NCBI GenBank assembly: GCA_016793885.1
Contig: JAEUHE010000200.1
Coordinates: 1 to 64,000 of the forward strand
Origin: Verrucomicrobiales bacterium
GTDB taxonomy: Bacteria; Verrucomicrobiota; Verrucomicrobiia; Limisphaerales; UBA11320
Reading direction: 5' to 3'
DNA: 64,000 nucleotides
Position 1 is the stretch's first letter, and each line of letters opens with the position of its first letter. The position numbers and the translations under genes are program-made. Shown here piece by piece: positions 4,601-53,408 of the stretch. The notes under the pieces were generated by a model. That model was not told the DNA's origin, searched no databases, and saw nothing but the letters and a program-made list of their open reading frames with translations.

Positions 4601-7432
4601 CGCAGTTCAGTTCGAACCACGCCTATCAACGCCTCATGGACCGTCACGACGACGGAACCTGATAACACGTATTCCATTACGCTCTACTCAACGGGTCGGT
4701 TAGCATCTGTCACGCGGTATGATTCGAACAACGTTCAAATCGCCAAAACGACATACGGCTACGATAGCCATGGCAGGCAGCATCAGGTCACGGATGCTCG
4801 GAATGGAACGACCACTCAGACGTTCAACAGTGCCGATCAAGTCATTTCTGTTACGACTCCTGCACCAGGCAACGGCCAAGCGGCTCAGACAACCAGCACT
4901 GAATACGATAACCGAGGAAGAGTTTTCAAAACGACTTTCCCTGACTCGACCATTGTCACCAACGAGTATTTCCTCACCGGTGAGCTTAAGAAAACATTTG
5001 GTTCACGGACTTATCCAGTGGAATACACCTATGATTCGCAGGGTCGGATGCTGACCATGAAAACGTGGAAAGACTTTGTGGGGAACACCGGCACGGCGAC
5101 CAACACCTGGAAGTATGACGGCTATCGAGGGTTCCTCACCAACAAGGTCTATCCAGACGGGATCGGTCCCAGCTATACCTACACCGCTGGGGGGAAACTT
5201 AAAACCCGAAAATGGGCTCGGGGCATCACAACGACCTATACCACCAATTCTTTGGGAGATATCGTTTCGGTGGACTATTCAGATTCCACGCCGGACGTCA
5301 CTTACACTCTGGATCGGCTAGGCCGAAAGACCACCATTTCGCAAGGAAGTGACACGACCGCGTTTCTCTTCACCGAATCGGGCCTGCCCATTTCCGAGAA
5401 GGGGACTGCCGGAACGCTGAATGGATTGACAATCACCAACCAATACGACAGCTTAATGAGGAGAAGTGTCGTCAAAGCCATGGTTACCTCACCAGCCACA
5501 ACCCTGAGCAGTGCCACCTACGGGTATGATCCCAGCGGACGCCTACAAGGGGTGACCAATGGAACCTTTTCCGCCAACTATTCGTATTTGGGGAATTCCC
5601 CCCTGGTCAGTCAGATCCTGTTCAGAGAAAACACGACGACTCGGATGACCACCGCCAAGTCCTACGATTATCTCAATCGGTTGCTGTCGATCTCCTCGAC
5701 CGCTGGATCTTCAGTGATCTCCAGTCACGGTTACCTCTACAACGACGCCAACCAGCGAACACGAGTAGATTTGGTTGATGGATCCTATTGGATCTACGAG
5801 TATGACAAGCTGGGTCAGGTGACGAGCGGCAAGCGCTATTGGGCGGATGGGACTGTGGTGGCAGGACAACAGTTTGATCATGCCTTCGACGACATCGGCA
5901 ATCGCAGCAGCACCAAAGTAGGTGGCGACAGCAATGGCCTGAATCAGCGGAGTGCCACCTACTCAGCCAACAATCTGAATCAATACACGAGCCGAACGGT
6001 GCCTGCGCAGGTGAATGTTTCGGGAATTGCTCTTCCGGCTTCGACCATGACGGTGAACTCCCTAGCCACCTCGCGAAAGGGTGAATACTACTGGGGAGAA
6101 GCCACTGCCAACAACGCCTCGGCTGCCGATTTTCTATCGATTACGAGCCTGGCGACCTTCGGTCCCACGAACACCAGCACCAACGGGTATGTGTTCGTTC
6201 CGAAGACTCCGGAAACGTTCTCCTATGATGCCGACGGGAACCTGACCAACGATGGTAGGTGGGTGTATACCTGGGATGGGGAGAACCGGCTCACCCAGTT
6301 AGAGAGCCAGTCCACGGCCCCCTCGGCCTCGAAACGGAAGATCACCTACACGTACGATTACCAGAGTCGGCTAATTGCTCGGAAGAGCTACACCAACAAC
6401 GGGAGCTACCAGATCAAAAGCGACACGAAATACCTGAATGACGGCTGGCGTTGCCTGGCGGAAATCAATGCAGCGAACAACAACGTGATTCGGGGGTATG
6501 TCTGGGGCCTGGATTTGAGCGGTTCTCTTGAGGGGGCCGGGGGAATCGGTGGCCTTTTGATACTCACGGATGCCGCCACGAGTACGAGCCACTTCTATGC
6601 CTACGATGGCAACGGGAATGTCTCAGCGATGGCTAAGACCTCGGATTCATCGAAGACGGCGCATTACGAGTATGGGCCATTTGGCGAAGTCGTTCGAGCG
6701 TCGGGCACCATTGCCAAATCCAATCCGATGCGGTTCTCGACCAAGTGCCAAGATGAGGAAACTGATCTCCTTTACTATGGCTACAGATTTTACAACTCTT
6801 CCACCGGGCGTTGGCTATCAAGGGATCCGATTGAGGAAGAAGGTGGGCTGAACCTTTACGGGTTCACCCTTAACGACGCACAAAACTATTCTGACTACCT
6901 CGGCAAGTCCGCCTCCGGCTGGAGTTGGGATGACGGTGGTGATGGGGTTTTGCAGCCGTCTGACGTCGATAATGGGGGAACGAGAGTGTTGTTTTGGCAA
7001 GGGAGTGCTACAGTGGAGCCTGGAAGCCAGATCCTTCCCGGCTGTGCAGGCTGGGCGATTGATACAGGCGGTTTAGGCAAGCTCGCGTGGCACTACTCAG
7101 GCCCGAAGGTTAAGCAGCACGAAGGCGTTCACGTCACCGATCGCACCTCGCTCTGGAACGACTATAAGACACATGCGCTCTCTTTTGAGAATCGGTGCTT
7201 TTGCAAAAAGGCCCAGGCTGACTGTCTCGCCGGTGCAATTCGAGGGACGATGAGCCTACTGTATCGGAAGCGTGGCGACTTGAAAGCGGCGGAGTGGGAC
7301 TGCACGGATTATCCCCAGGGTAATGCTCTGCAACAAAAACGCTGTCGAGAACGAGATGCGTTAGTTCCCGTTGTCCAGTCCCTTCAGAGCCAGTTGACTA
7401 AAGAGATCGCTATATGTTTACGCATGCCATGA
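1640..7432 (+). CDS. RHS/YD-repeat protein with variable HEGVH-containing C-terminus
   Basis: This 1930-residue protein has a long array of YD repeats (for example 'YDSQGRM', 'YDPSGRL', 'YDADGNLTNDGRWVYTWDGENRL') over roughly residues 600-1700, which in known RHS proteins form a beta-shell around a C-terminal cargo. The RHS core signature lies at about 1660-1755 ('GYRFYNSSTGRWLSRDPIEE', then 'NLYGFTLNDAQN' and 'DYLG'). After it comes a non-repetitive tail of about 175 residues holding HEGVH at about 1827-1831, which fits a zinc metallopeptidase HExxH motif, plus several cysteines. A hydrophobic stretch at about residues 43-56 after an Arg pair could be an export signal, so the true start may be internal. 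A toxin role is inferred from architecture. A secreted surface protein without toxicity is the alternative. Confidence 0.85.
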   Translation: MEMLSFLKDWCFGSWDASCRRRLGEAALLEWPILHRSQIGRRTGIGLGLVVALVFGAESRLEAEWFPCGISAPSTPATWTMQEIQQACGWEAQLLSFTSYGWVEANGDSMCINLQEPIITGDTLGLEVVVTSETNTFQEDPGPPAVFGKKWMIRLQKKSEDPGSIKPGEFKITVNGECIEGGSCSRSITILIRDERIPFCVGCTKEENDKLLFGPPSTTFDDGWTRSFNFFDSVEPVPPVTAKSQSPLLGFSAAVEKNLGVSVELSGGMRAFGQVAGGLTIRESLPTKAVYTPACLQFNYFTNNERVLIRDGGNQIRQLKLAQGLMNVVTLSSSKYSVDFYSIGSVGAMSGGLYTFSGSPAQTVTISNPDATGNTSNSVQIVDGVGLTNRYDWLGTGWQLSSAGGTRIVRRCETTNTTAGTRTICTEVFAGDTNTLLSCQMLTLKPIGSRELMTEEVIGQGAEALTNYVSYSTNGFREKVLRADGGWTIFQNDAMGRVTNEFSGFLNQAPTNSVSLTRSWERDYTTNVISGSGDHLDQDTAIPRREIERILGQEVGRRYRVVVSNETREIVCVTPGAAWDNASNMVTITRTMTGPDAFFGWTQSRKHPDGTMEIYQYTTNSTGYLTNTVLSGEPDAAGTNIVRGRKTITVAGPCSERLSKTVIDMESGITVDSEVYSEFDSQFRPKKTTYLDGTISWTDYGCCGPINSTNRDGVVITFEKDALSRTTSTKANGIVMTNLLDSAGRRFAEGRWSSAGVFVQLGSRKFNSRGEVTNETNALSQVTLSGETLSSYQRTATNTFADGSTLTNKYYRDGLLEKVTGTAAHPIRYEYGVESEGGVQRYFEKEIKLTASGSDTSEWSKRYSDLAGRVYKTVRSDGSTLQSFWNVKGQQVKTIDADGVVQLMEYNGEGEVEYTAVDQDRDGVIDFAGLDRIHSSKRTVTTAHGYNVVQTKSYLWATNNSAVSNLVSISEQSTSGLRTWETSFGLTRSSVRTTPINASWTVTTTEPDNTYSITLYSTGRLASVTRYDSNNVQIAKTTYGYDSHGRQHQVTDARNGTTTQTFNSADQVISVTTPAPGNGQAAQTTSTEYDNRGRVFKTTFPDSTIVTNEYFLTGELKKTFGSRTYPVEYTYDSQGRMLTMKTWKDFVGNTGTATNTWKYDGYRGFLTNKVYPDGIGPSYTYTAGGKLKTRKWARGITTTYTTNSLGDIVSVDYSDSTPDVTYTLDRLGRKTTISQGSDTTAFLFTESGLPISEKGTAGTLNGLTITNQYDSLMRRSVVKAMVTSPATTLSSATYGYDPSGRLQGVTNGTFSANYSYLGNSPLVSQILFRENTTTRMTTAKSYDYLNRLLSISSTAGSSVISSHGYLYNDANQRTRVDLVDGSYWIYEYDKLGQVTSGKRYWADGTVVAGQQFDHAFDDIGNRSSTKVGGDSNGLNQRSATYSANNLNQYTSRTVPAQVNVSGIALPASTMTVNSLATSRKGEYYWGEATANNASAADFLSITSLATFGPTNTSTNGYVFVPKTPETFSYDADGNLTNDGRWVYTWDGENRLTQLESQSTAPSASKRKITYTYDYQSRLIARKSYTNNGSYQIKSDTKYLNDGWRCLAEINAANNNVIRGYVWGLDLSGSLEGAGGIGGLLILTDAATSTSHFYAYDGNGNVSAMAKTSDSSKTAHYEYGPFGEVVRASGTIAKSNPMRFSTKCQDEETDLLYYGYRFYNSSTGRWLSRDPIEEEGGLNLYGFTLNDAQNYSDYLGKSASGWSWDDGGDGVLQPSDVDNGGTRVLFWQGSATVEPGSQILPGCAGWAIDTGGLGKLAWHYSGPKVKQHEGVHVTDRTSLWNDYKTHALSFENRCFCKKAQADCLAGAIRGTMSLLYRKRGDLKAAEWDCTDYPQGNALQQKRCRERDALVPVVQSLQSQLTKEIAICLRMP

Positions 7433-7818
7433 AACCGATCGTCTACCTTCCCATCTGCGCCGTAGCTGGAGTTGTTTTCAGCCTTTACGCTGTGCAGTCT
7501 CCTAAACCCGAGCGCGTATCCCCTACAGTTGTAAACGTTCAAGGGGCGACAAATTGGTTTGCCGTCGAGGGACTTCGTGTGAGGGCGGATGGCCAGTTGG
7601 TCGCCATCCACAAAACGATCGAGATTGCCAGGCTGGAAGTAACGGCTAACATTCACACTGCACACTTGGACAGGATGGTGAGCTTCGATTATTTCGAAAA
7701 CTTCGGCCTGCCTGCTTATCGTGTTATTTTTGATAGGTCCGGGAAAGTTGTGTCGGTGACATCGAGGACGGCGACTGAGCAAATAGATTTCACCGAAGGT
7801 ACGTCGCTTAAGCGTTAG
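7429..7818 (+). CDS. Small exported protein, candidate immunity protein for the RHS toxin
   Basis: The start at 7429 is preferred over 7414 because it overlaps the RHS stop as ATGA and gives a clean signal/anchor sequence ('MKPIVYLPICAVAGVVFSLY'). The 129-residue product then has a short mixed alpha/beta domain with no family I recognise. Position immediately behind an RHS gene with a polymorphic C-terminus, small size and translational coupling are the usual features of a cognate immunity gene. An N-terminal membrane or periplasmic signal would place it outside the cytoplasm, where a secreted peptidase-type toxin would act. The function is inference from context only. Confidence 0.6.
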   Translation: MKPIVYLPICAVAGVVFSLYAVQSPKPERVSPTVVNVQGATNWFAVEGLRVRADGQLVAIHKTIEIARLEVTANIHTAHLDRMVSFDYFENFGLPAYRVIFDRSGKVVSVTSRTATEQIDFTEGTSLKR

Positions 7819-8162
7819 CGCGCACGAGAACTGATAACCCGGTGACAGGAGGAGCGATTTCCTTTCCGAGGAGGCAACAGAGGCGGGATCAATAGTAAGC
7901 GGTAATTTGGCGACCCACTATTCGTGATTCCGGAAACATGCTACATGCTGGGGGATGAACGAAACCAACTCTCTCCTGGCGCATTCTCGAAGCTGCGGCT
8001 CGTCGCGAGAGCGTCCCCCCTCTTGGGAGTAGAGGGGCTTCCCAGGGGGGGGCAGGCCGAGGGAAGGACGGGTCAGGCGACTTTGCGCTGACTGTTGGAA
8101 TGTTGATTAACGGTAACCGTCTGAGCAACCCCATCTAGCGGGTGAAGCGGCCGGGTGGGAGG
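7819..8162. other. Intergenic stretch with one GC-rich hairpin
   Basis: No convincing gene. The 81-codon minus-strand frame here has no family features. A perfect 7-bp inverted repeat (CCCCTCT/AGAGGGG, 8017-8037) sits in the middle without a following T-run, so it is not a standard terminator. Confidence 0.4.
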
Positions 8163-8321
8163 ATGGCGCGCATGAGAACCAAAACCAAGCGCGACCGACG
8201 CACCCGGTATCCCCAACATCAAATTGAAAGCCTGCTCCAAGAGTTCACGGCATCCGGACTATCGGTCCGACGATTTGCTCTTCAGCATGATCTTTGTCCG
8301 GCCACGCTGAGCCGATGCTGA
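8163..8321 (+). pseudogene. Truncated IS66-type TnpA (helix-turn-helix accessory protein) remnant
   Basis: A 52-codon frame too short for ordinary ORF lists. Its product has a basic start (RTKTKRDRRTRYP) followed by 'SLLQEFTASGLSVRRFALQH' and a terminal 'LSR'. This matches the N-terminal helix-turn-helix of IS66-family TnpA proteins, in which the pattern SGLS-x-x-x-FA is followed by LYRW or LSRW. The frame stops where that tryptophan would stand, and no TnpB or TnpC follows, so this is a dead fragment of an insertion sequence. Confidence 0.6.
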
Positions 8322-8770
8322 AGGGACTCAACGTCGGACACGAATCTAGGAATCGGGGGAGACATGTCCGACTTGGTGCCCACACCCCAAGCGAACGTCG
8401 AGACTTTTCAGCTGCCGACGGCCCTTGGAACGGCGGAACTCGGTTGGGAAAGGATTATGAGGAGAGGGAGGACGGCACTGACGGCGATTTAGCCGAGTTC
8501 GTGTCACAATTGCCCAGGTTCTTACGACTTCACTCCGGCCGGAAAACGGCACTTCCTACGACGGCACTCCGGCGCTTAACACCTATGATAAAAACCTACC
8601 AAGGAACTCACTGCCAGCGATTATGCCAGTAGAAGAGTAGTGGCGGAGTACGGTTCGATAGCTCGCGAGTATCGCCGATTAGTCTTGCTGACAGGTCCGA
8701 AATGCCTGATTTTACAGGCAGATTTGAGTGCTAAGGCATTGGAAATCAATGTCCGCTAGAAAGGAGCAAA
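8322..8770. other. Gene-free stretch
   Basis: Between the IS66 remnant and the tandem repeat I see no supported gene. The 112-codon plus-strand frame at 8294-8632 overlaps the remnant and has no recognisable features. The stretch may hold further degraded transposon sequence. Confidence 0.35.
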
Positions 8771-42582: not shown

Positions 42583-42659
42583 CGGGGCGTAGCGTAGGCT
42601 GGTAGCGCGCTTGTTTCGGGTACAAGAGGTCGTGAGTTCGAATCTCACCGCCCCGACCA
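42583..42659 (+). tRNA. tRNA-Pro (anticodon CGG), CCA encoded
   Basis: Acceptor CGGGGCG (42583-42589) pairs with CGCCCCG (42649-42655). D arm GCG..CGC, anticodon stem CTTGT/ACAAG around the loop TTCGGGT, and a T arm with GTTCGAATC. Discriminator A at 42656 is followed by genomic CCA (42657-42659). The minus-strand mnmA gene diverges from it. Confidence 0.95.
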
Positions 42660-42708: not shown

Positions 42709-43822
42709 ACAGGAGTCAGGCCTAACTCTTCGACAATTGGGACAGAATCCTCATCATTTCGGTTCGTAGGTCGCCCTTTGCCAGCCTTTTGCCCAAGCGA
42801 CTGATGGCTCCTGCCACTGCCGCATAGTCGATCCCACCCGCCATTTCAGACAACTCGGTCAACTTCATCCGTCCCTGCCGCCGCCCCAGGTACAATGCCG
42901 CATCGCGTCCCCAGTCTCCATATCGATCCCTAAACGCCTCCCAATCCTCCCCTTTGACCGACTCCACCGCTTTGACGATCCGATCCCATGTGACTCGCTC
43001 ATCGTAAACCTTCAAGCTCTTCTGCTCCCGTCGACTCCCCTTCACCTGATTGCGCAGTTGTGCCGCAAAATCTTCGCTCCCCAATATCACCCCGCCGATC
43101 AACCGTTCCCACGGGGATTCCACCATCCCTTCCCGCACTGGATCCTCGGTATACTTTCGTAACGCTTCTCGTTGCTGGGATAGGGATCTACCGCTGTAGC
43201 AACTCATGACGCGTTCCAGGTTAAGCCAGTCCATCGGTTTCACCTTGCCCAGATAAGCCGGATAGCTGCTCCAGGTATGCTCCCGAAGAACCTTCAGCCG
43301 TTCTTCAACGAGCCGTTCATCGCGGGCGATGGCGGCGGCGGTCCTTTGTCGGGCGCGATCCTGCTGAGACAGACCCAACCGGCCAACCCGAGCTGGGTTC
43401 AAGTGTACATACCTCACCACCTCCATCAGGCCAGCGTCGTCTTCAATCAGCTCCGCCTTGAACCGCCCTTGGAACAGATGCCCGGATCGATCGTGTCGAC
43501 AGTTGAACCACATCCCGTAACTGACGTTGAGCCATTGTCCCACTCGACTCAGGTTTGGTTCAGGCGTCTCGATCACCAGATGGTAGTGATTGTTCATGAG
43601 TACGCACGCGTGCAGCAGAGTGCCAAACCGACTCGGAAGCTCGGACAACAGTTCTAGAAAATGTTCCCGGTCTCGAGTATCCCGATAGATAGGCTTCCGT
43701 TCGTTACCTCGGGCGGTCAGGTGATACAATCCTCCACTCACTTCAATCCGCAATGGTCTGGCCATGTTCGCTATCTCCTCGCAGAACGTTTCAAATGTCA
43801 ATTAATTAGATCTGACCCCTAT
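42709..43822. mobile_element. RAYT-carrying element with imperfect terminal inverted repeats
   Basis: The 18-bp sequence ACAGGAGTCAGGCCTAAC (42709-42726) and the reverse complement of 43805-43822, ATAGGGGTCAGATCTAAT, match at 14 of 18 positions and point inward around the RAYT gene. Beyond the right end an 18-bp direct duplication follows. The element sits 50 bp from tRNA-Pro. Confidence 0.6.
42722..43765 (-). CDS. REP-associated tyrosine transposase (RAYT, Y1_Tnp), second copy
   Basis: 347 residues from the ATG at 43765 (MARPLRIEVSGGLYHLTARG, the usual family start); an upstream Met adds 12 residues. HUH motif H60-Y-H62 in 'MNNHYHLVIETPEPN', probable catalytic Y83 in 'NVSYGMWFNCRHDRSGHLFQ'. 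A C-terminal DnaA/HTH-like domain is visible at about 290-345 ('LYLGRRQGRMKLTELSEMAG'). It differs strongly from the RAYT at 12608, so they are separate lineages. The stop codon lies in the left terminal repeat of its element. Confidence 0.9.
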   Translation of the reverse strand: MARPLRIEVSGGLYHLTARGNERKPIYRDTRDREHFLELLSELPSRFGTLLHACVLMNNHYHLVIETPEPNLSRVGQWLNVSYGMWFNCRHDRSGHLFQGRFKAELIEDDAGLMEVVRYVHLNPARVGRLGLSQQDRARQRTAAAIARDERLVEERLKVLREHTWSSYPAYLGKVKPMDWLNLERVMSCYSGRSLSQQREALRKYTEDPVREGMVESPWERLIGGVILGSEDFAAQLRNQVKGSRREQKSLKVYDERVTWDRIVKAVESVKGEDWEAFRDRYGDWGRDAALYLGRRQGRMKLTELSEMAGGIDYAAVAGAISRLGKRLAKGDLRTEMMRILSQLSKS

Positions 43823-43848
43823 TCGCCCCGTGACCCCTATTCGCCCCG
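43813..43848. repeat. 18-bp direct tandem repeat
   Basis: TGACCCCTATTCGCCCCG occurs twice back to back (43813-43830, 43831-43848) at the right end of the RAYT element, joining it to the histidine-kinase remnant. Confidence 0.85.
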
Positions 43849-43849
43849 C

Positions 43850-44087
43850 TACGTCAAGGACAACTGTCGGCTTCGACGAGAAATACGCCCACAAGCTCTT
43901 CGGTGTCTTCCACCGGCTGCACACCGAGGAGGAATTTGAGGGCACGGGGGTGGGTCTGGCGCTGGTCCAACGCGTCATCCATCGCCACGGAGGTAAGGTC
44001 TGGGCCGAAGGAAAACTGAATCAGGGAGCTACTTTCTATTTCACCCTGCCGAAACGAAAACAACTAACTAATGAGCAATCATACTGA
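43850..44087 (+). pseudogene. C-terminal remnant of a phytochrome-type sensor histidine kinase
   Basis: Only the last part of the ATPase domain remains. The protein frame gives '[20 protein letters not shown]', then '[18 protein letters not shown]' (G2 box) and '[10 protein letters not shown]', matching the end of kinases paired with Rcp1-type regulators. Directly upstream (43850-43864) another frame reads YVKDN, the residues expected before GVGFD, so about two bases are missing at 43864-43866 and the fragment is frameshifted. Everything 5' of this, including the His box, is gone, replaced by the RAYT element and its 18-bp duplication. Confidence 0.75.
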
Positions 44088-44340
44088 GGTCGAAGTTCTA
44101 CTGGTCGAAGATAGCCCGTGCGACGCGGAGATGACGTTGCGCACGCTGCACAAGCGCCACCTGGCCAATTCCATCGTTCACGTAAAGGACGGCCAGGAGG
44201 CGCTGGACTGGCTGCTCGGTACGGTTTCCCACGCGGGCCGCGACGCCCAAGCCAGCCGAAGTCTAAACTGCCGAGCTGGATGCGGGTTGCCTCCGAGGCA
44301 ACCGGGAACTGGACGGAGTCGGGGCGATGGCTTGCGCTGA
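44071..44340 (+). pseudogene. Truncated Rcp1-like response regulator
   Basis: The start overlaps the kinase remnant by 17 bp, the usual arrangement for such pairs. 'VEVLLVEDSPCDAEMTLRTL' gives the acidic pocket (ED) and 'IVHVKDGQEALDWLLG' the next helix, ending near 'HAGRDAQ'. After about residue 60 the family sequence stops: the phosphoacceptor Asp block (LLDL), Thr and Lys positions are absent and the frame runs into unrelated sequence. It cannot be phosphorylated and is presumably dead. Confidence 0.75.
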
Positions 44341-44370: not shown

Positions 44371-46455
44371 TTACTCTCGCGGCAACTGGTCCGGGTTGAT
44401 CTGCAATTCCTGGCAGGCGTGGATGTAGGAAGAAGCGGACCAGGCTTGGAAGCACTTGCCCATCGGACGGCCTGTCCGGCTGTGAATCCATTCATTGAAT
44501 TCCCATTCCTGGCTTTTCCCAAGCTGGTTGAGCTTCGCGAGTTTGAGCAACTCGCGGCAGGCCACTTCGTAGAGGCCAAGCCTGTGAATGAACCGCACCC
44601 ACATGCCGCCGATGAACGGCCAAATGCCGCCGTTATGGTAATGGCCGGGCAGGTTCAACAAATTCACCGTGTAGTAAGAACGCCAGTCTGGATCGCCGGA
44701 CTGCACGGGCGGATAGAGGTTCACCACCGGGTATGGTTCGTTCACGCCCACGCCCCACATGAACTTGAACGCGGTGCGCGCGCGATCCACATCAAGCACG
44801 TTGGAGATGAAGCCCTGCACGTTGCCTAGCACGTCGCAACGCCAGTTGAAGCCGAAGGGCGTAATTTCGGCCAGCAAGTAACTGGCGTCGCCGACGGAGA
44901 ATTGTGATTGCGCGAAACTAAAGGCGTGTGGGCTGGTCACAGACTTGGTCGAAGGCCAGAAGACTTCGAGAATCTTTGAGCGCAGCGCCTGCGAGCGTCG
45001 CAGATAATCAGTCGCCTCATCGAAGCATCTCCCCAGTTCGAGCAACCGGCTGTAGGCCACCGTGGCGCGATACCACAGGACTTCGTCATAGAGGACGTGA
45101 TAGCTGCGTCCGAAGAGATCGGTCCAGTCGCCGGCCTCGGGGATTTCGAGCAGGCCGTCGTTATTGCTGTCGAGCGCGCCGAGCCAGTTCATCACGCGCC
45201 GGAGCCGCTCGCTGTATTCAGCCAGAAAGCCGAGGTCGCCGGTCTTCCGCACGTAGGCGTGAAAGGCAACGATGGCCCACAGCGCGCTGTCGATGGAGCA
45301 GATGCCGCCCACGCCGCTGTAATCCGGCGTGCCGTCGTCGATGCGGACATTGGCCGGCATCTGCCCGTTGGCGGCGAGATGGGTGAAAAGGGTGCGCAGG
45401 GTGTCCCTTTGCGCGCCGCGGATGTCGGGATCATCCAGTTCAATCGTGCCGACGATGGTGATGGCGCCGTCGCGCGCCCATACGCTGCGATAGTTCACAT
45501 CGGTGCCGGTAACTTCGTTGTCCGCGAGCGAGCAGGCGGAGAATCCGAGCGGCGTGATGTTTTTCCGGACGGTGAGGAGCGCGTGGCGATAACCCGTGGC
45601 GATGAGGTCGCGCTCCTCCGACGTGAGTGAGCCGAGCGCGGCGTCGGTGAACAACATGCGCAGTGTCGGGTCCATTTCCCCGGCGGCCAGCGAGGACGAC
45701 TGCGCTCGCGGCGTTTCGGGAATGACTCCGAAGTGTTGCAGACCTTCGAGCACCCCTTCCGCCATGACCCGCGTGGCATTAAAGGTCTGAATTTTGACGA
45801 CGGCCTCAATCAACTCCGGTTGGGCGTTCTCAACAATGATGCCCTTCACGCCGGGCAGGAGGAACATGCTGGCGTCGTTTCCCGTGTCGCCGGCGACGAG
45901 CGCCGTTGCGGGATCCACCGCGATTCGTTCGCACAGCCAGGCCAGGGCCGCGCCCTTGTTTGTATCCATCGGCAGCACGTCCAGATCGCGCGCGCTGGAA
46001 TAGACCACGGTGACGTGCAGCCCGGTTTCGGCCAGTTGCTTTTCCAGCGTGGCGAGGACTTGAGGTGTCGCCTGATGTAGATACCAGCTCGACTTGTAAG
46101 GGTGCAGGAATTGCGGCGGCTGGCGTGAGACGCCGGGGAAGTTGCCGACGATCACCTCGATCTTCTGCAAATCCCATCCTTGCCGGAATCGCTGGTTGAA
46201 CTCGTTCAGCGAACGTTTGCGCTGGCCGTCGTAAATCTGCGTGCCGACACCGCCGATGATGTAATCCGGCCACGGCAGAACGCGCGTCGCCAACAAGTCG
46301 ATCACATCCTGCACCAGCCGCCCCGTGGCGTAGCACAAACGTGGGCGCGTGGTTTTCGGCAGGGAATCCCACGCATCCTTGAATCGGCGCGTGGACTCGG
46401 GATTGCCGAGCAGCGTGCCGTCGAGGTCCGAACAGAAGAGTTTAATCGGCGTCAT
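44371..46455 (-). CDS. HAD phosphatase fused to an amylo-glucosidase-like glycoside hydrolase
   Basis: 694 residues from the ATG at 46455 ('MTPIKLFCSDLDGTLLGNPE'); longer in-frame starts lie in the upstream gene. N-terminal HAD-IIB domain (about 1-245): motif I DLDGT, 'CYATGRLVQD', 'KGAALAWLCERI' and 'VAGDTGNDASMFLL', as in sucrose-phosphate and mannosylglucosyl-phosphoglycerate phosphatases. C-terminal (alpha/alpha)6-barrel (about 285-690): 'YRSVWARDGAITI', 'DYSGVGGICSIDSALWAIVA', 'GDWTDLFGRSYHVLYDEVLW', 'GIWPFIGGMWVRF', like glycogen-debranching or glucosylglycerate hydrolases. Both halves look complete. It is the last gene of a damaged compatible-solute-type operon. Confidence 0.8.
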   Translation of the reverse strand: MTPIKLFCSDLDGTLLGNPESTRRFKDAWDSLPKTTRPRLCYATGRLVQDVIDLLATRVLPWPDYIIGGVGTQIYDGQRKRSLNEFNQRFRQGWDLQKIEVIVGNFPGVSRQPPQFLHPYKSSWYLHQATPQVLATLEKQLAETGLHVTVVYSSARDLDVLPMDTNKGAALAWLCERIAVDPATALVAGDTGNDASMFLLPGVKGIIVENAQPELIEAVVKIQTFNATRVMAEGVLEGLQHFGVIPETPRAQSSSLAAGEMDPTLRMLFTDAALGSLTSEERDLIATGYRHALLTVRKNITPLGFSACSLADNEVTGTDVNYRSVWARDGAITIVGTIELDDPDIRGAQRDTLRTLFTHLAANGQMPANVRIDDGTPDYSGVGGICSIDSALWAIVAFHAYVRKTGDLGFLAEYSERLRRVMNWLGALDSNNDGLLEIPEAGDWTDLFGRSYHVLYDEVLWYRATVAYSRLLELGRCFDEATDYLRRSQALRSKILEVFWPSTKSVTSPHAFSFAQSQFSVGDASYLLAEITPFGFNWRCDVLGNVQGFISNVLDVDRARTAFKFMWGVGVNEPYPVVNLYPPVQSGDPDWRSYYTVNLLNLPGHYHNGGIWPFIGGMWVRFIHRLGLYEVACRELLKLAKLNQLGKSQEWEFNEWIHSRTGRPMGKCFQAWSASSYIHACQELQINPDQLPRE

Positions 46456-47043
46456 TCCAGGGTTCATCCCATTCATTGCAGGCGAGCACGAGCGCTGCGC
46501 CGGGGCGCTGCTCCACGGTCGCGATGAGTTGCTGCGCAATGCCCGTCCACGTGAAAAGACTGCGGGCCTTGTGAGCGCCCATCCGGGCCATGCGGTTGCG
46601 CAGCCGCGGGTGCCGGAACGCGTTGATCATGGTGATGCCCAGATCCTCTTTGTCTAACGGATCGGTAAAGAGCGCGTGCCGACCAAAGGTCAGCGCGCGA
46701 TACAATCCGCCGTGGACGGTCACCACCGTCGGAGTGCCCGACGCCATCGCTTCGATGGCTGTCATTCCAAACGGCTCGTAACAGCTGGAGAGGACGAACA
46801 AGTCGGCGGCGCGATAATAATCGGCCATCTGATAATGGCTGTCGATGAATTCGTCGTTCAGCCCGTGCTTTTTGATGAAACGGAGCGCGGTCGTCCCCAG
46901 TTCCTCGATGTGGCACGGCAGGATGAGCGCAATGGGCGTCTCCTTGTTTGAACTCCTCTAGCTCCCGTTCGAGCCGGAAGACATCGGGCTTGCCGAGGTG
47001 GTGCAGCGTGGCGATGGCGCCGGTTTGAAAAAAGTCGGACATA
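46442..47043 (-). pseudogene. Chimeric, frameshifted glycosyltransferase (GpgS-like start joined to GT4 end)
   Basis: The product starts 'MSDFFQTGAIATLHHLGKPD' at 47043, as in GT81 glucosyl-3-phosphoglycerate synthases. One extra G at about 46942-46943 shifts the frame; correcting it gives 'ETPIALILPCHIEELGTTAL', still GpgS-like, then passes without a gap into the C-terminal half of a GT-B enzyme: 'DYYRAADLFVLSSCYEPFGM', 'TAIEAMASGTPTVVTVHGG', 'HPRLRNRMARMGAHKARSLF'. That end matches GT4 sucrose-phosphate or mannosylglucosyl-phosphoglycerate synthases. A large deletion seems to have fused two neighbouring genes, followed by a frameshift. Only the last 128 codons are an uninterrupted ATG frame (46442-46828). 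Confidence 0.7.
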
Positions 47044-47047
47044 GGAA

Positions 47048-48574
47048 TCAGGGTTTCGGTTTGTGACTGGCGCTCGACCGGGCTTCGGTCAGGAGGGAGG
47101 AGCGGACGATGTGCAGCGCCGTTTCGTTGTGCTCCTTCGCTTGTTCCGGCGACGCAGCCTCGGTGTAACACCGGAACTCGGGCGCGTTGCCGGACGGACG
47201 CAGATGCACGATGTCGCCGCTCGCGAAGGTGATGCGCGTGCCGTCGGTGAGGTCCAGCGATGCCACTTCGCCGAACTTCGCGCCGAAGTGTCTGGCGGCG
47301 GCGCGTTCATGCCCGGCCTCAAACAAACCGATGACCGCCCGGCTCTGCTCGACCGGAAAACCGCGAAGCAGCCCGCTGGCGGTGAAGCGGCGTGGAAGCG
47401 ATCCCACCAGCGTGGAGAGAGTTTTCCCCTGGCGTCGCGCCTCGACGAGGCACGCGAGAATGGGCAGGACGGCGTCGCGCGTCGGCAACGGCAGAAGCGG
47501 AGCTCCGGAATCCGGCCACGTGACAGCACTCCCGAGCAGGAAGCCACCGTTGGCCTCGTAGCCCACGACGCATTTCGCCCCCCTGGCCGTCTCCTCCAAC
47601 ATGGAGGCGATCACGTAGGGCGAACCGATGCGCGTGCGCAGGACTTGTTTGAAGAAGCCGCACCTTTCGACGGCGGTGTTGGAACTGACGGGAGTGGACA
47701 CCGAATCGGCCCCGACGAACTTCGCCGCGAGAATTCCGAGGATGTCACCTCGCAGCCATTCGCCATGCTCGTCGGCAAGCAGTGGCCGGTCGCTGTCGCC
47801 ATCCGTCGAGACGATGGCATCGAACTGAAATTCCTTCGCCCAATCGCGGGCCAGGCGGGCGTCCTTGTCGCGAATGGCCTCGGTGTCAACGGGGACGAAT
47901 TCGTCCGAGCGATGCAGTGCCCAGAGCTTTGCGCCGAGTCGGCCAAAAATCTTCGCCAGCAGATCGCGTCCGACGGCCGAGTGCTCGTAAATGCCCAGGC
48001 GCAATCCATTCAGGGCATCGGCGGGGAAAAAATCCAAGTAACGTGCGAGGTACGCGTTCTCGGCTTCGGCTTGCATCGGGCGCGGACGGACTGCGGGTTC
48101 CCGGAACGCGCCGGATGCGTCGAATAGAGCGTCGTCCACTTCGACGGCCTGGCCGGTGATTCCGGCTTCATCGTCTTTGAGAACTTCGCCGGAGCATTTG
48201 TTGAACTTAATGCCGTTGCGGTCGGCGGGAATGTGACTTCCGGTGACCATCACGGCGGGAACGCCTCGGCGCAGGCCGTAATACGCTACTGCTGGCGACG
48301 GGATCTCGCCGCAATTGACGGGAGTATAGCCGGCGTCTTCCGCGGCGCGAAGCACCGCCTCCATGATCCGGCTGGTGCTCGGACGCAAGTCGCCGGCCAC
48401 GGCCACGGTTTCGCGCTGTTTCTTTAGTTCGCCACAGCTTTCGAGGTATTGGATGAAGCCGCGCGTATAGGCATAGCAGACCAGGTCCGTCATCTGAGCG
48501 ACAAGCCCACGGGCGCCGCTGGTGCCGAACTTCACGCCGCTGCGGGCCATTAGATGTTCTATGGTGAGTTTCAT
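47048..48574 (-). CDS. Phosphohexomutase (phosphomannomutase/phosphoglucomutase family)
   Basis: 508 residues from the ATG at 48574, which overlaps the upstream stop (ATGA). Family motifs are all present: 'KFGTSGARGLVAQMTDLVCY', phosphoserine loop 'MVTGSHIPADRNGIKFNKCS', Mg-binding 'IVSTDGDSDRPLLADEHGEW', sugar-specificity loop 'VVGYEANGGFLLGSA', and phosphate-binding 'HLRPSGNAPEFRCYTE'. It would supply mannose-1-P or glucose-1-P for nucleotide-sugar and compatible-solute synthesis. It is the best preserved gene of its operon. Confidence 0.9.
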   Translation of the reverse strand: MKLTIEHLMARSGVKFGTSGARGLVAQMTDLVCYAYTRGFIQYLESCGELKKQRETVAVAGDLRPSTSRIMEAVLRAAEDAGYTPVNCGEIPSPAVAYYGLRRGVPAVMVTGSHIPADRNGIKFNKCSGEVLKDDEAGITGQAVEVDDALFDASGAFREPAVRPRPMQAEAENAYLARYLDFFPADALNGLRLGIYEHSAVGRDLLAKIFGRLGAKLWALHRSDEFVPVDTEAIRDKDARLARDWAKEFQFDAIVSTDGDSDRPLLADEHGEWLRGDILGILAAKFVGADSVSTPVSSNTAVERCGFFKQVLRTRIGSPYVIASMLEETARGAKCVVGYEANGGFLLGSAVTWPDSGAPLLPLPTRDAVLPILACLVEARRQGKTLSTLVGSLPRRFTASGLLRGFPVEQSRAVIGLFEAGHERAAARHFGAKFGEVASLDLTDGTRITFASGDIVHLRPSGNAPEFRCYTEAASPEQAKEHNETALHIVRSSLLTEARSSASHKPKP

Positions 48575-49626
48575 GCGCAAAGAAAAAACTGGTCACGGTC
48601 TGTGGTGCCGATGCAGCCTGCGTTGAGCCAGAGGACATCATAAGGACGCAGTGTAAACGACAAATCGCCTCGGTAAGTGGCTCGATGAACACGTTCGCTA
48701 ATCAGGTTCACCCACAATCGCTCTCCCCCCAATTCTTCCGAAGGCAGCGAGATTTCGAGCGTTTCGTTCGCAAGATTGTGCAAGCATAACACGCGCTCGC
48801 TACGGTCGAGTGAAATCCGAAACACGGCGAACATACTCGGGTCGCCAGACAGCACTTGCTGGGCTCCACTCGGATGAAATGCGGGGTGTTGGCGTCGCGC
48901 GCGCAGGAGCGCATGGAGCACCAGTGGCGGCAGCGCGAAGTTGTAAACCAACTGCGCCTCGTTCGTGCCGTTGCCGAAGTAGGAAATGTTGTCGGTGTGC
49001 GGCACGTTCGTTTCCGTGATCAGCAGGACGTGCGGGGCGATTTCATCAAGCACCGCGCGCCATAGTTGGACGACGTAGTGTGTTTGCGGCAAATGAATGC
49101 ACGAGGTGCCGATGCTCTTACATAGATAGGCAATCGCATCGAGCCGGATGAACCGTGCGCCTTCCTCCACGTAGCACAGCAGCGCGCGGAGTGTGGCCAA
49201 CAGCCCCTCCGGGTTCTTGAAATTCAAGTTAACCTGGTCCGCGTTGAACGTCGTCCAAACCTTGCGCAGTCCGGTGGCACTCTGAAACGCGGCAAGCAAT
49301 GGCAGTGCGCGAGTGCGGACGGCTTGCGAGAAATCCGGGCTGCCTTCGTCCGTCACAAAGAAGTTTCGGTAAACCGAAGTGTCCGCGGGGAATTTTAAGA
49401 ACCACTCGCCCTGCGCGGACATGTGGTTGAAGACCGCGTCGAACATCAGGTCGAACGACTGTCCAATCCGTGCGACAAGCTGCGGCAGACGAGGCCGGAA
49501 TTCATCAAGCAACTGCAAGACCTGCGCCGTGACGCCACTGGCCGCGTGTGCGCCGTAAAGCGACTCCAAGTGGGCGCGGATTCGTGCAGTTCCGCCGTTA
49601 CTTTGATTGTCTGCTGTCCTGTTCAC
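48571..49626 (-). CDS. GH13_18 sucrose/glucosylglycerate phosphorylase-like, internally deleted
   Basis: 351 residues against about 490-580 in the family; GTG start overlapping the upstream stop (GTGA). The nucleophile Asp is present in 'ARFIRLDAIAYLCKSIG' and the acid/base Glu in 'HVLLITETNVPHTDNISYFG'. Two stretches are missing in frame: about 70 residues between 'DEFRPRLPQ' and 'RIGQSFDLMFDAVFNHMSAQ' (the start of the barrel), and about 150 residues after 'ALPPLVLHA', including the third catalytic Asp (ASHDG region), before 'LLRARRQHPAFHPSGAQQVL'. It is therefore very unlikely to be active although the frame is open. Deletion sizes are estimated from memory of the family. Confidence 0.75.
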   Translation of the reverse strand: MNRTADNQSNGGTARIRAHLESLYGAHAASGVTAQVLQLLDEFRPRLPQLVARIGQSFDLMFDAVFNHMSAQGEWFLKFPADTSVYRNFFVTDEGSPDFSQAVRTRALPLLAAFQSATGLRKVWTTFNADQVNLNFKNPEGLLATLRALLCYVEEGARFIRLDAIAYLCKSIGTSCIHLPQTHYVVQLWRAVLDEIAPHVLLITETNVPHTDNISYFGNGTNEAQLVYNFALPPLVLHALLRARRQHPAFHPSGAQQVLSGDPSMFAVFRISLDRSERVLCLHNLANETLEISLPSEELGGERLWVNLISERVHRATYRGDLSFTLRPYDVLWLNAGCIGTTDRDQFFLCA

Positions 49627-50367: not shown

Positions 50368-50640
50368 TTCGCTGCACTCCCACGCCGGCCTCAGTGAAAC
50401 GATTAGAAGCCAGCATTTCGTTGCTGCATTTATTTTTGCTCCATTCTACGCTTCTTGCGTGCCACGAATACTGGACATGCTGGCAAAGCTGCCGAGTGCG
50501 CGGCGCTCGAATGGGGTGAAGCAAGCGGCCAAGCCTCAGCCGGCGCGGCCTGGCACCCTACTAGCGTGGCCCGACCTGAGCAGCCAGCTCGCTAACTTTC
50601 ACACGGTTGTCGCCGTCATTGAAGATTTGCCGACTCGAAC

Positions 50641-50853
50641 GAGGAGACGGTCCTGATCTGTGACCTAGATCTCGACAGCCTGCACGATTCGCGCAGCAGC
50701 GGTACCGTCACCCCCCGGCTGGATCGCCGGCCGGATCTGTTCCAATTCGTCACCAGCTTCCAGCCAGCAGTGGCCGCGCCGCCGTCGCGCGAGGACGGCC
50801 CGTTGGGCGACCAGCTGGACTTTTCCTCAGAACGGCTGGCGGACGGTGAATAA
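50641..50853 (+). pseudogene. C-terminal fragment of a carbon-nitrogen hydrolase (nitrilase superfamily)
   Basis: The frame reads 'EETVLICDLDLDSLHDSRSS' followed by 'TPRLDRRPDLFQFV', which is the end of nitrilase/N-carbamoylputrescine amidase-type proteins (a strand 'VLxADLDLxxL' and a final 'DRRPDLY'). The catalytic Glu-Lys-Cys part is missing: a stop lies at 50620-50622 and no start is apparent. The open frame ends at 50853, 63 bp before mgtE. Confidence 0.6.
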
Positions 50854-52232: not shown

Positions 52233-52811
52233 TTAGCCATTACCCTTGAGTTCTCTCACCGAAGCAGTGGAGGCGGCGCCCGATGCCACAGAGTTGATGA
52301 CGGGGCCTTCCTGATGCGGATCGTCGCTGGCAGTTCTTGCCTCCGTCCCCATTGGCAGCACCAGGATTGCCGAGATCGTCATGAACAATCCAGTGATTAC
52401 CAGCCACGCCGTGAGGCGCGCATCGGTGCCATGGTCGAGCATGGCTTTGGCGGCGAGCGCCACAATCGTCAGGTTTGGACAGAGTAGGAGGAACGCACGC
52501 CCGTCGCCGTCGGTCTTGAGCCAGCGGCGATGCAACACCTCGCGCGCGGCGAGCAGCACAAACGCGGTGGCGACCGCCAGAAGCACAGGTTCGTCCAGGA
52601 ACAAGCGCCAGTTGATTTCCAACCCCAAGGCCACGAAGAACACCGGGATGAGAAAGCGATGGCTGATGGGCGCCACGTACTCTTCCAGACGTTTCCCATC
52701 ATGAACCGAAGCGTGAACTAACGCCAGCGCCGGGCGACCCAGCTTCTTGCACGCGTCCGGCACCGCCATGAAGAGCAGGACCAGACAGATGATGATCTCG
52801 ATATTGTTCAT
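52233..52811 (-). CDS. Cation:proton antiporter (CPA2-like), apparently with a large internal deletion
   Basis: 192 residues from the ATG at 52811 (MNNIEIIICLVLLFMAVPDA); a longer start adds 15. The first helix 'CLVLLFMAVPDACKKLGRPA' is the normal N-terminus of KefB/NhaS-type antiporters, but it is followed at once by 'EYVAPISHRFLIPVFFVALG', which belongs to the last third of the protein, then 'LCPNLTIVALAAKAMLDHG' and two further helices. About 200 or more residues, including the core ion-binding helices, seem to be missing in frame. Function is therefore doubtful. Tail-to-tail with mgtE, 2 bp apart. Confidence 0.7.
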   Translation of the reverse strand: MNNIEIIICLVLLFMAVPDACKKLGRPALALVHASVHDGKRLEEYVAPISHRFLIPVFFVALGLEINWRLFLDEPVLLAVATAFVLLAAREVLHRRWLKTDGDGRAFLLLCPNLTIVALAAKAMLDHGTDARLTAWLVITGLFMTISAILVLPMGTEARTASDDPHQEGPVINSVASGAASTASVRELKGNG

Positions 52812-53408
52812 CAGGATTGGCGCGGTCGCATCGCCGGAATGCGGTCGCCGCGCCAATTACCACGGAGTTGTAGCCGCTCTCCTCCATCGCTGGCAATCCT
52901 CGGCTAGTCGTTTCACTGAGGCTCGAATGGCAGTCCTGCCAATAGCCGCCACTTCCACCCGTGGGATAGCATGAGGTTATCACACAAACGATGCCCATCA
53001 AGATTGACTGGTGTGCCCCTCTTGCATTGGAGTGTTGTTTGCTCCCGTGCCGCGTCGGTGTGGACAACAAGCCCGTAAAACGGTTGCGTCCTCGCCGGCG
53101 CACTCTTTCGCGAAATCCCTTTGCCACCCTGGTGTAAAGCCGTTGGGGTCGCCCATTGGTGCATTGTGTCAAGAGACAAAAAGGTGGTGAAGTCCTGACG
53201 GACTCGACGGCCTTATGCTGGGCTTTCAGCACTTGATGGGAGGGGGTCGTTACCTGGGCTGACAACCCCAGGTTTCGTCACCCCACACACGCTGAGGGTT
53301 GAAAGTCCGCACCATCGCACGGCAGTGCCCGCTGAGTTCAAACTAAATCTCACCCGCTTCTAATCACACCCCAGCGAGCGAGTGCACCAAGATCTATTTT
53401 GACACCCG
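52812..53408. other. Gene-free stretch between the broken-gene region and the secreted-protein region
   Basis: No supported gene. A 188-codon minus-strand frame (52699-53265) runs through here and into the antiporter in another frame; its product is Arg/Ser-rich with no family features. A small inverted repeat, TGGGCTGACAACCCCA (about 53259-53274), is the only structure noticed. Confidence 0.4.

Follow-up and report, generated by a model that had tools for sequence, protein, structure and literature searches.

Glucosyl-3-phosphoglycerate synthases (GpgS) of family GT81, described by the model NCBIfam NF040724, have a complete catalytic domain of about 400 residues. Glycosyltransferases of family GT4 of the MshA or sucrose-phosphate synthase type (TIGR03449, TIGR02472) have a two-domain GT-B architecture. 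The gene described here resembles each of these enzymes over part of its length. It has the same first ~55 residues as GpgS, but the remaining ~350 residues, which include the catalytic core, are not present. It keeps the C-terminal 129 residues of the GT4 enzymes but lacks their N-terminal domain and the start of their C-terminal domain, except for about 20 residues; the GT-B architecture is therefore absent, with 196 codons and the N-terminus gone relative to the intact gene of locus L045. A glucosylglycerate phosphorylase (GGaP, GH13_18) is represented nearby by a remnant that is 66–69% identical over 190 residues to homologues adjacent to GpgS. By alignment, loop A of GGaP, with its conserved Glu, falls in a block deleted from this remnant. 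Deletion-fusion pseudogenes of bacterial operons are a further parallel: the chimera formed at a short shared sequence and the frameshift are common to both, as may be the signs of relaxed constraint. We consider it highly probable that the chimera is a pseudogene and that two or more deletions produced it, in an osmolyte region that is itself decaying. It represents ordinary gene decay and not a new enzyme, and it is more complex than first described. Among the publications listed in literature searches, none described this cluster or its pattern of in-frame deletions.

The window, by which we mean the whole stretch of DNA analyzed, comprises the first 64,000 nucleotides of contig JAEUHE010000200.1 of a Verrucomicrobiales bacterium (assembly GCA_016793885.1). 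The chimeric gene occupies 47042-46442 on the minus strand, and nucleotide alignment to the L045 GT4 gene and to the GpgS genes of loci L002 (same genome) and L008 resolves it into three pieces and two joins, J1 and J2 (Table 1). Its ATG (47042-47040) lies five bases past the stop of the phosphohexomutase gene. The first frame reads MSDFFQTGAIATLHHLGKPDVFRLERELEEF, beginning with MSDFFQTGAIATLHHLG..., which is the start of a GT81-type glucosyl-3-phosphoglycerate synthase. Identity to the GpgS of its own genome is 64% over residues 1–33 and 74% over residues 33–59. The first 33 residues and the remainder are in different frames, and the frame after the shift carries on the GpgS sequence (ETPIALILPCHIEELGTTALR) before departing from it. 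The one-base insertion that the sequence-only reading had placed at about 46942 is thus recovered as a one-base length difference. The next piece, a scrap of GT4 (ALRFIKKHGLNDEFIDSHY), corresponds to residues near 161–180 of the 505-aa L045 enzyme, the closest intact GT4, with 46 of 60 bases identical to nt 480–539 of that gene. The C-terminal block follows L045 from nt 1129 onward with 94% protein and 83% nucleotide identity (332/402 bases). Pfam assigns 46442-46942 to Glycos_transf_1 (PF00534, 8.4e-17), and the sequence EPFGMTAIE contains the Glu-x7-Glu pattern, which we take to mark the donor-binding sequence of the GT4 C-terminal domain. Tens of homologues stand behind each assignment, and aligning both halves to their families supports the GpgS/GT81 and GT4 parentage. 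The earlier view of a GpgS N-terminus fused to a GT4 C-terminal half is accordingly right about both parts; they are not directly joined, as the ~20-codon scrap lies between them.

Table 1. Features in and around the chimeric gene (positions in the window)
Feature	Position	Strand	Basis
Intact fusion of HAD (sucrose-phosphatase type) and GH100-like glycosidase (HAD-GH)	44371..46476	-	full length relative to relatives; Pfam, PDB; normal constraint
GT4 C-terminal block, 129 codons and stop	46442..46831	-	identity to L045; Pfam PF00534
J2, within GT4	46831..46832	-	alignment to L045
GT4 N-terminal domain scrap, ~20 codons, including the stretch shared at J1	46832..46892	-	alignment to L045
J1, GpgS to GT4	46874..46892	-	inside a stretch common to both parents' proxies, with an 8-base exact core
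GpgS-derived 5' piece, ~55 codons, one internal frame break	46874..47042	-	identity to L002; GpgS of relatives
One-base length difference, frame shifted	46940..46946	-	sequence; frames; alignment gap relative to L002 and L008
Intact phosphohexomutase (PMM/PGM family)	47048..48574	-	ATGA overlap with upstream GH13 gene
GH13_18, glucosylglycerate-phosphorylase type, two in-frame internal deletions	48571..49626	-	alignment to L266 homologue
Na+/H+ antiporter remnant, ~213 codons missing in frame	52233..52856	-	alignment to L007 antiporter

At J1, 15 of 19 positions are alike between the parent proxies, and the 8-base core occurs once in each, in the same codon phase. Random junctions would share 8 bases with a probability of 2e-4 and 15 of 19 positions with a probability of 2e-5, figures that are rough because proxies stand in for the actual parents. 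At J2, 588 nt (196 codons) are missing relative to L045, exactly between codons and in frame, with no clear repeat at the join. A deletion had been proposed to explain the chimera; the deletion origin and the frameshift stand, with two deletion joins instead of one.

We propose that the minus-strand GpgS and GT4 genes first came to lie close together. Recombination at the short shared sequence would then have taken out the remainder of GpgS together with the beginning of GT4, giving the in-frame fusion that is now read at the shared Ala-Leu-Arg codons. A second deletion, which accounts for the 588-nt gap seen in GT4, would have left the last part of the donor-binding half, and a change of one base within the GpgS piece would have produced the frame shift present today. 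The last three events may have occurred in any order. The product has lost the catalytic core of GT81 and almost the entire acceptor domain of GT4, so that, judging from its architecture, it cannot function as an enzyme of either family. The GGaP-type GH13 gene and the antiporter have decayed in the same way.

The GH13_18 remnant has 351 residues compared with 595 in the L266 homologue, which lies beside GpgS; about 80 and about 170 codons are gone. It retains the sequence TETN, and a (T/S)ETN motif is found in all 34 homologous loci. A review gives TETN as the mark of glucosylglycerate phosphorylase (PMC7178133). In the antiporter remnant, residues 16–44 correspond to residues 1–29 of the L007 antiporter and residues 52–180 to residues 249–375. 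Two further fragments are a histidine-kinase tail (43830-44087) and an acetyltransferase/nitrilase scrap (50629-50757). The intact HAD-GH gene is 82% identical to that of L045; it starts inside the 3' end of GT4, and the overlap stretch is identical to L045. The locus offers a clean example of the erosion of an osmolyte cluster: the genes for the phosphorylase, the GT4 and one copy of the synthase are broken, but those for the mutase and the phosphatase-glycosidase, which lie among them, remain under normal constraint.

The region 42722-44340 holds a transposase, presumably of the REP-associated type, together with the histidine-kinase tail and the beginning of a response-regulator-like sequence that is cut short. 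A dispersed repeat lies at 53180-53377, where most of the 61 matches to the own genome fall, on many contigs. At the left of the region is a tRNA-Pro gene (42583-42659), and the sequence to the right of this tRNA has no counterpart beside mnmA in relatives of the genus. A genomic island at tRNA-Pro was considered. No repeat of the tRNA 3' end was found further right, the best candidate matching at 14 of 18 positions, hence no island is claimed.

Relaxed constraint was assessed in two ways. Taking L045 as the sister sequence and using eight outgroups, we count 6 window-specific and 1 L045-specific amino-acid changes in the 129 sites of the GT4 C-terminal part, compared with 35 and 44 in 689 sites of HAD-GH; the difference is borderline (Fisher p ~0.05; p 0.06 for six versus one alone). 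Near-invariant sites were counted among homologues above set identity thresholds only, as simple counts without a phylogenetic model. The GH13 remnant breaks 4 of 48 such sites, the most of 34 sequences, and the GT4 C-terminal part breaks 2 of 60 (rank 6 of 44). The corresponding counts are 1 of 210 for HAD-GH (rank 37 of 51), 2 of 134 for the mutase (rank 10 of 18) and 0 of 8 for the GpgS fragment, the last of which counts against the pseudogene reading. Relative to the intact neighbors, the remnants show a trend toward relaxed constraint, as expected, borderline for GT4 and stronger for GH13. The HAD-GH and mutase genes appear intact and under normal constraint. Between the GT4 C-terminal part and L045, 52 codons have silent differences and 8 have amino-acid differences. 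Such a silent excess suggests that the GT4 has mostly been under constraint since it parted from L045, and hence that its inactivation is comparatively recent.

The comparison covered HAD-GH loci from named genomes (the best 80 of 228 relatives) and three relatives with strong GT4 matches. None of these 83 loci has the same fused architecture; apart from the genome's own loci, the fused N-terminus matched there nothing but a GpgS gene in L008 that stands separately. A search of 58 genomes with the 167-aa sequence gave a full-length match in the own genome and in none of the 57 relatives. An intact homologue of the same architecture, the finding named beforehand as evidence against the chimera, is therefore absent from the loci examined. 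A GT4 with at least 40% identity occurs in 71 of these best 80 HAD-GH loci, mostly directly upstream and in a few cases downstream, and in 68 of 86 loci the GT4 aligned over nearly its full length. The genus has four other genomes (80–94% complete), which gave no strong GT4, mutase, GpgS or HAD-GH match. The GT4 and HAD-GH pair is widespread (L007-L086): besides Verrucomicrobiota, it occurs in records titled Planctomycetota, Bacteroidota, Eremiobacterota, Spirochaetes and others.

As to the intact operon expected in relatives, intact GT4 genes are common and lie beside the same downstream gene, but the GpgS–GT4 order was not found. We infer the ancestral adjacency of the two genes: in no relative examined was this type of GpgS seen immediately upstream of a GT4 in the same orientation, and the exact order was found neither beside the mutase nor beside GT4 in members of the order. 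GH13 adjoins GpgS in 7 of 30 GpgS loci of the order (L218-L247, short flanks). None of the other cluster genes lies near the mutase in any of 17 wide loci (L146-L162).

The same genome also has an intact, 405-aa GpgS on another contig (C183, locus L002), which matches NF040724 at 8e-98, yet below the cut-off of that model. We considered whether the fragment might be a recent duplicate of this gene and rejected it, as the fragment matches the GpgS of some other genomes at up to 44 of 53 residues and the C183 copy at 39 of 53. The chimera had been thought to date the decay of the osmolyte pathway, a view that does not hold while an intact GpgS persists on C183. Because this copy survives, the chimera is no mark of lost glucosylglycerate synthesis.

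A separate question, compatible with decay, is whether the cluster belongs specifically to a mannosylglucosylglycerate pathway in which GpgS feeds this GT4. We regard this reading as possible but rather improbable. In Petrotoga, the GpgS and mannosyltransferase genes are adjacent, which counts in its favor. In L007, the gene 6 nt upstream of GT4 (7183-8685) joins a GT81 GpgS-like domain to a SerB-like phosphatase, which may make it a one-protein glucosylglycerate synthase, and GpgS lies near HAD-GH in L262 (~1.4 kb) and L263 (~11 kb). However, among the 82 HAD-GH loci listed, a GpgS of either type was detected in just 3 (L007, L008 and L017). Sucrose phosphatase is the closest solved structure to the HAD phosphatase domain (2.4e-31), and the glycosidase domain is GH100 invertase-like. 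The motif HSLG, which we take to be known from sucrose-phosphate synthases, is present in 56 of 68 GT4s and also argues against it. For the intact GT4s, MshA and sucrose-phosphate synthase give similar scores. The mannosylglucosylglycerate pathway assumed at the outset was accordingly not established: the GT4 is similar to sucrose-phosphate synthase and its partner to sucrose phosphatase, and GpgS adjoins GT4 only exceptionally. The GH13 with TETN, the mutase and GpgS would fit plain glucosylglycerate turnover. On sequence grounds, the locus may be a glucosylglycerate gene group that meets a GT4/HAD-GH pair, whose product is perhaps sucrose-like.

The joins or the extra base could also have arisen in contig building or consensus calling, the real genes being intact. 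The assembly is in 274 contigs, and a change of a single base in length is a typical consensus error. However, the missing GT4 parts, the GH13 blocks and the antiporter middle were sought throughout the own assembly (8.7 Mb, 95.7% complete) and found nowhere else, which speaks against simple misassembly. Furthermore, the decayed genes have a larger share of their near-invariant sites altered than the intact neighbors do, and J2 lies at no obvious repeat. We therefore consider an artifact unlikely.

All five large joins are in frame (J1, J2, two in GH13 and one in the antiporter), and in this the locus differs from deletion-fusion pseudogenes of bacterial operons. Under neutral decay the chance of this outcome is (1/3)^5, about 1 in 243, or (1/3)^4, 1 in 81, for the four within-gene joins, which counts against neutral decay, although the joins are few and their ascertainment is not clean. 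Intact genes lie directly behind two of the frame-kept remnants, the mutase after GH13 (with the ATGA overlap) and HAD-GH after GT4. Because such still-needed downstream genes would be translated by coupling, large deletions in the dying genes of an overlapping operon might survive only if the frame is kept, and the dead genes would be retained as translated leaders. We find this idea quite doubtful; neither the one-base shift in the chimera nor the antiporter, which is not directly followed by an intact gene on its strand, fits it. If frame-keeping were to hold across many decaying operons, translational coupling would shape pseudogenes.

That a composite or short protein from the fused or shifted frame is kept as a functional product is highly improbable: the in-frame joins and the silent excess in the C-terminal part would suit it, but the frameshift parts the start from the remainder, the architecture was absent from the loci screened, constraint that preceded inactivation accounts for the silent excess, and near-invariant sites carry R-to-C and K-to-N changes. 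The shifted frame was likewise rejected as a kept product; it runs open as far as the ATGA where HAD-GH begins, but this is unremarkable, as 17 of 43 relatives have that alternative frame open over the last block.

In L002 (460-3015, own genome) and L262 (6842-9425), GpgS adjoins a gene that we take to encode an MscS-like mechanosensitive channel. In L193 and L194, GpgS and the GH13 phosphorylase share one open frame of about 1000 codons, which would place the synthesis and the breakdown of one osmolyte in one protein.
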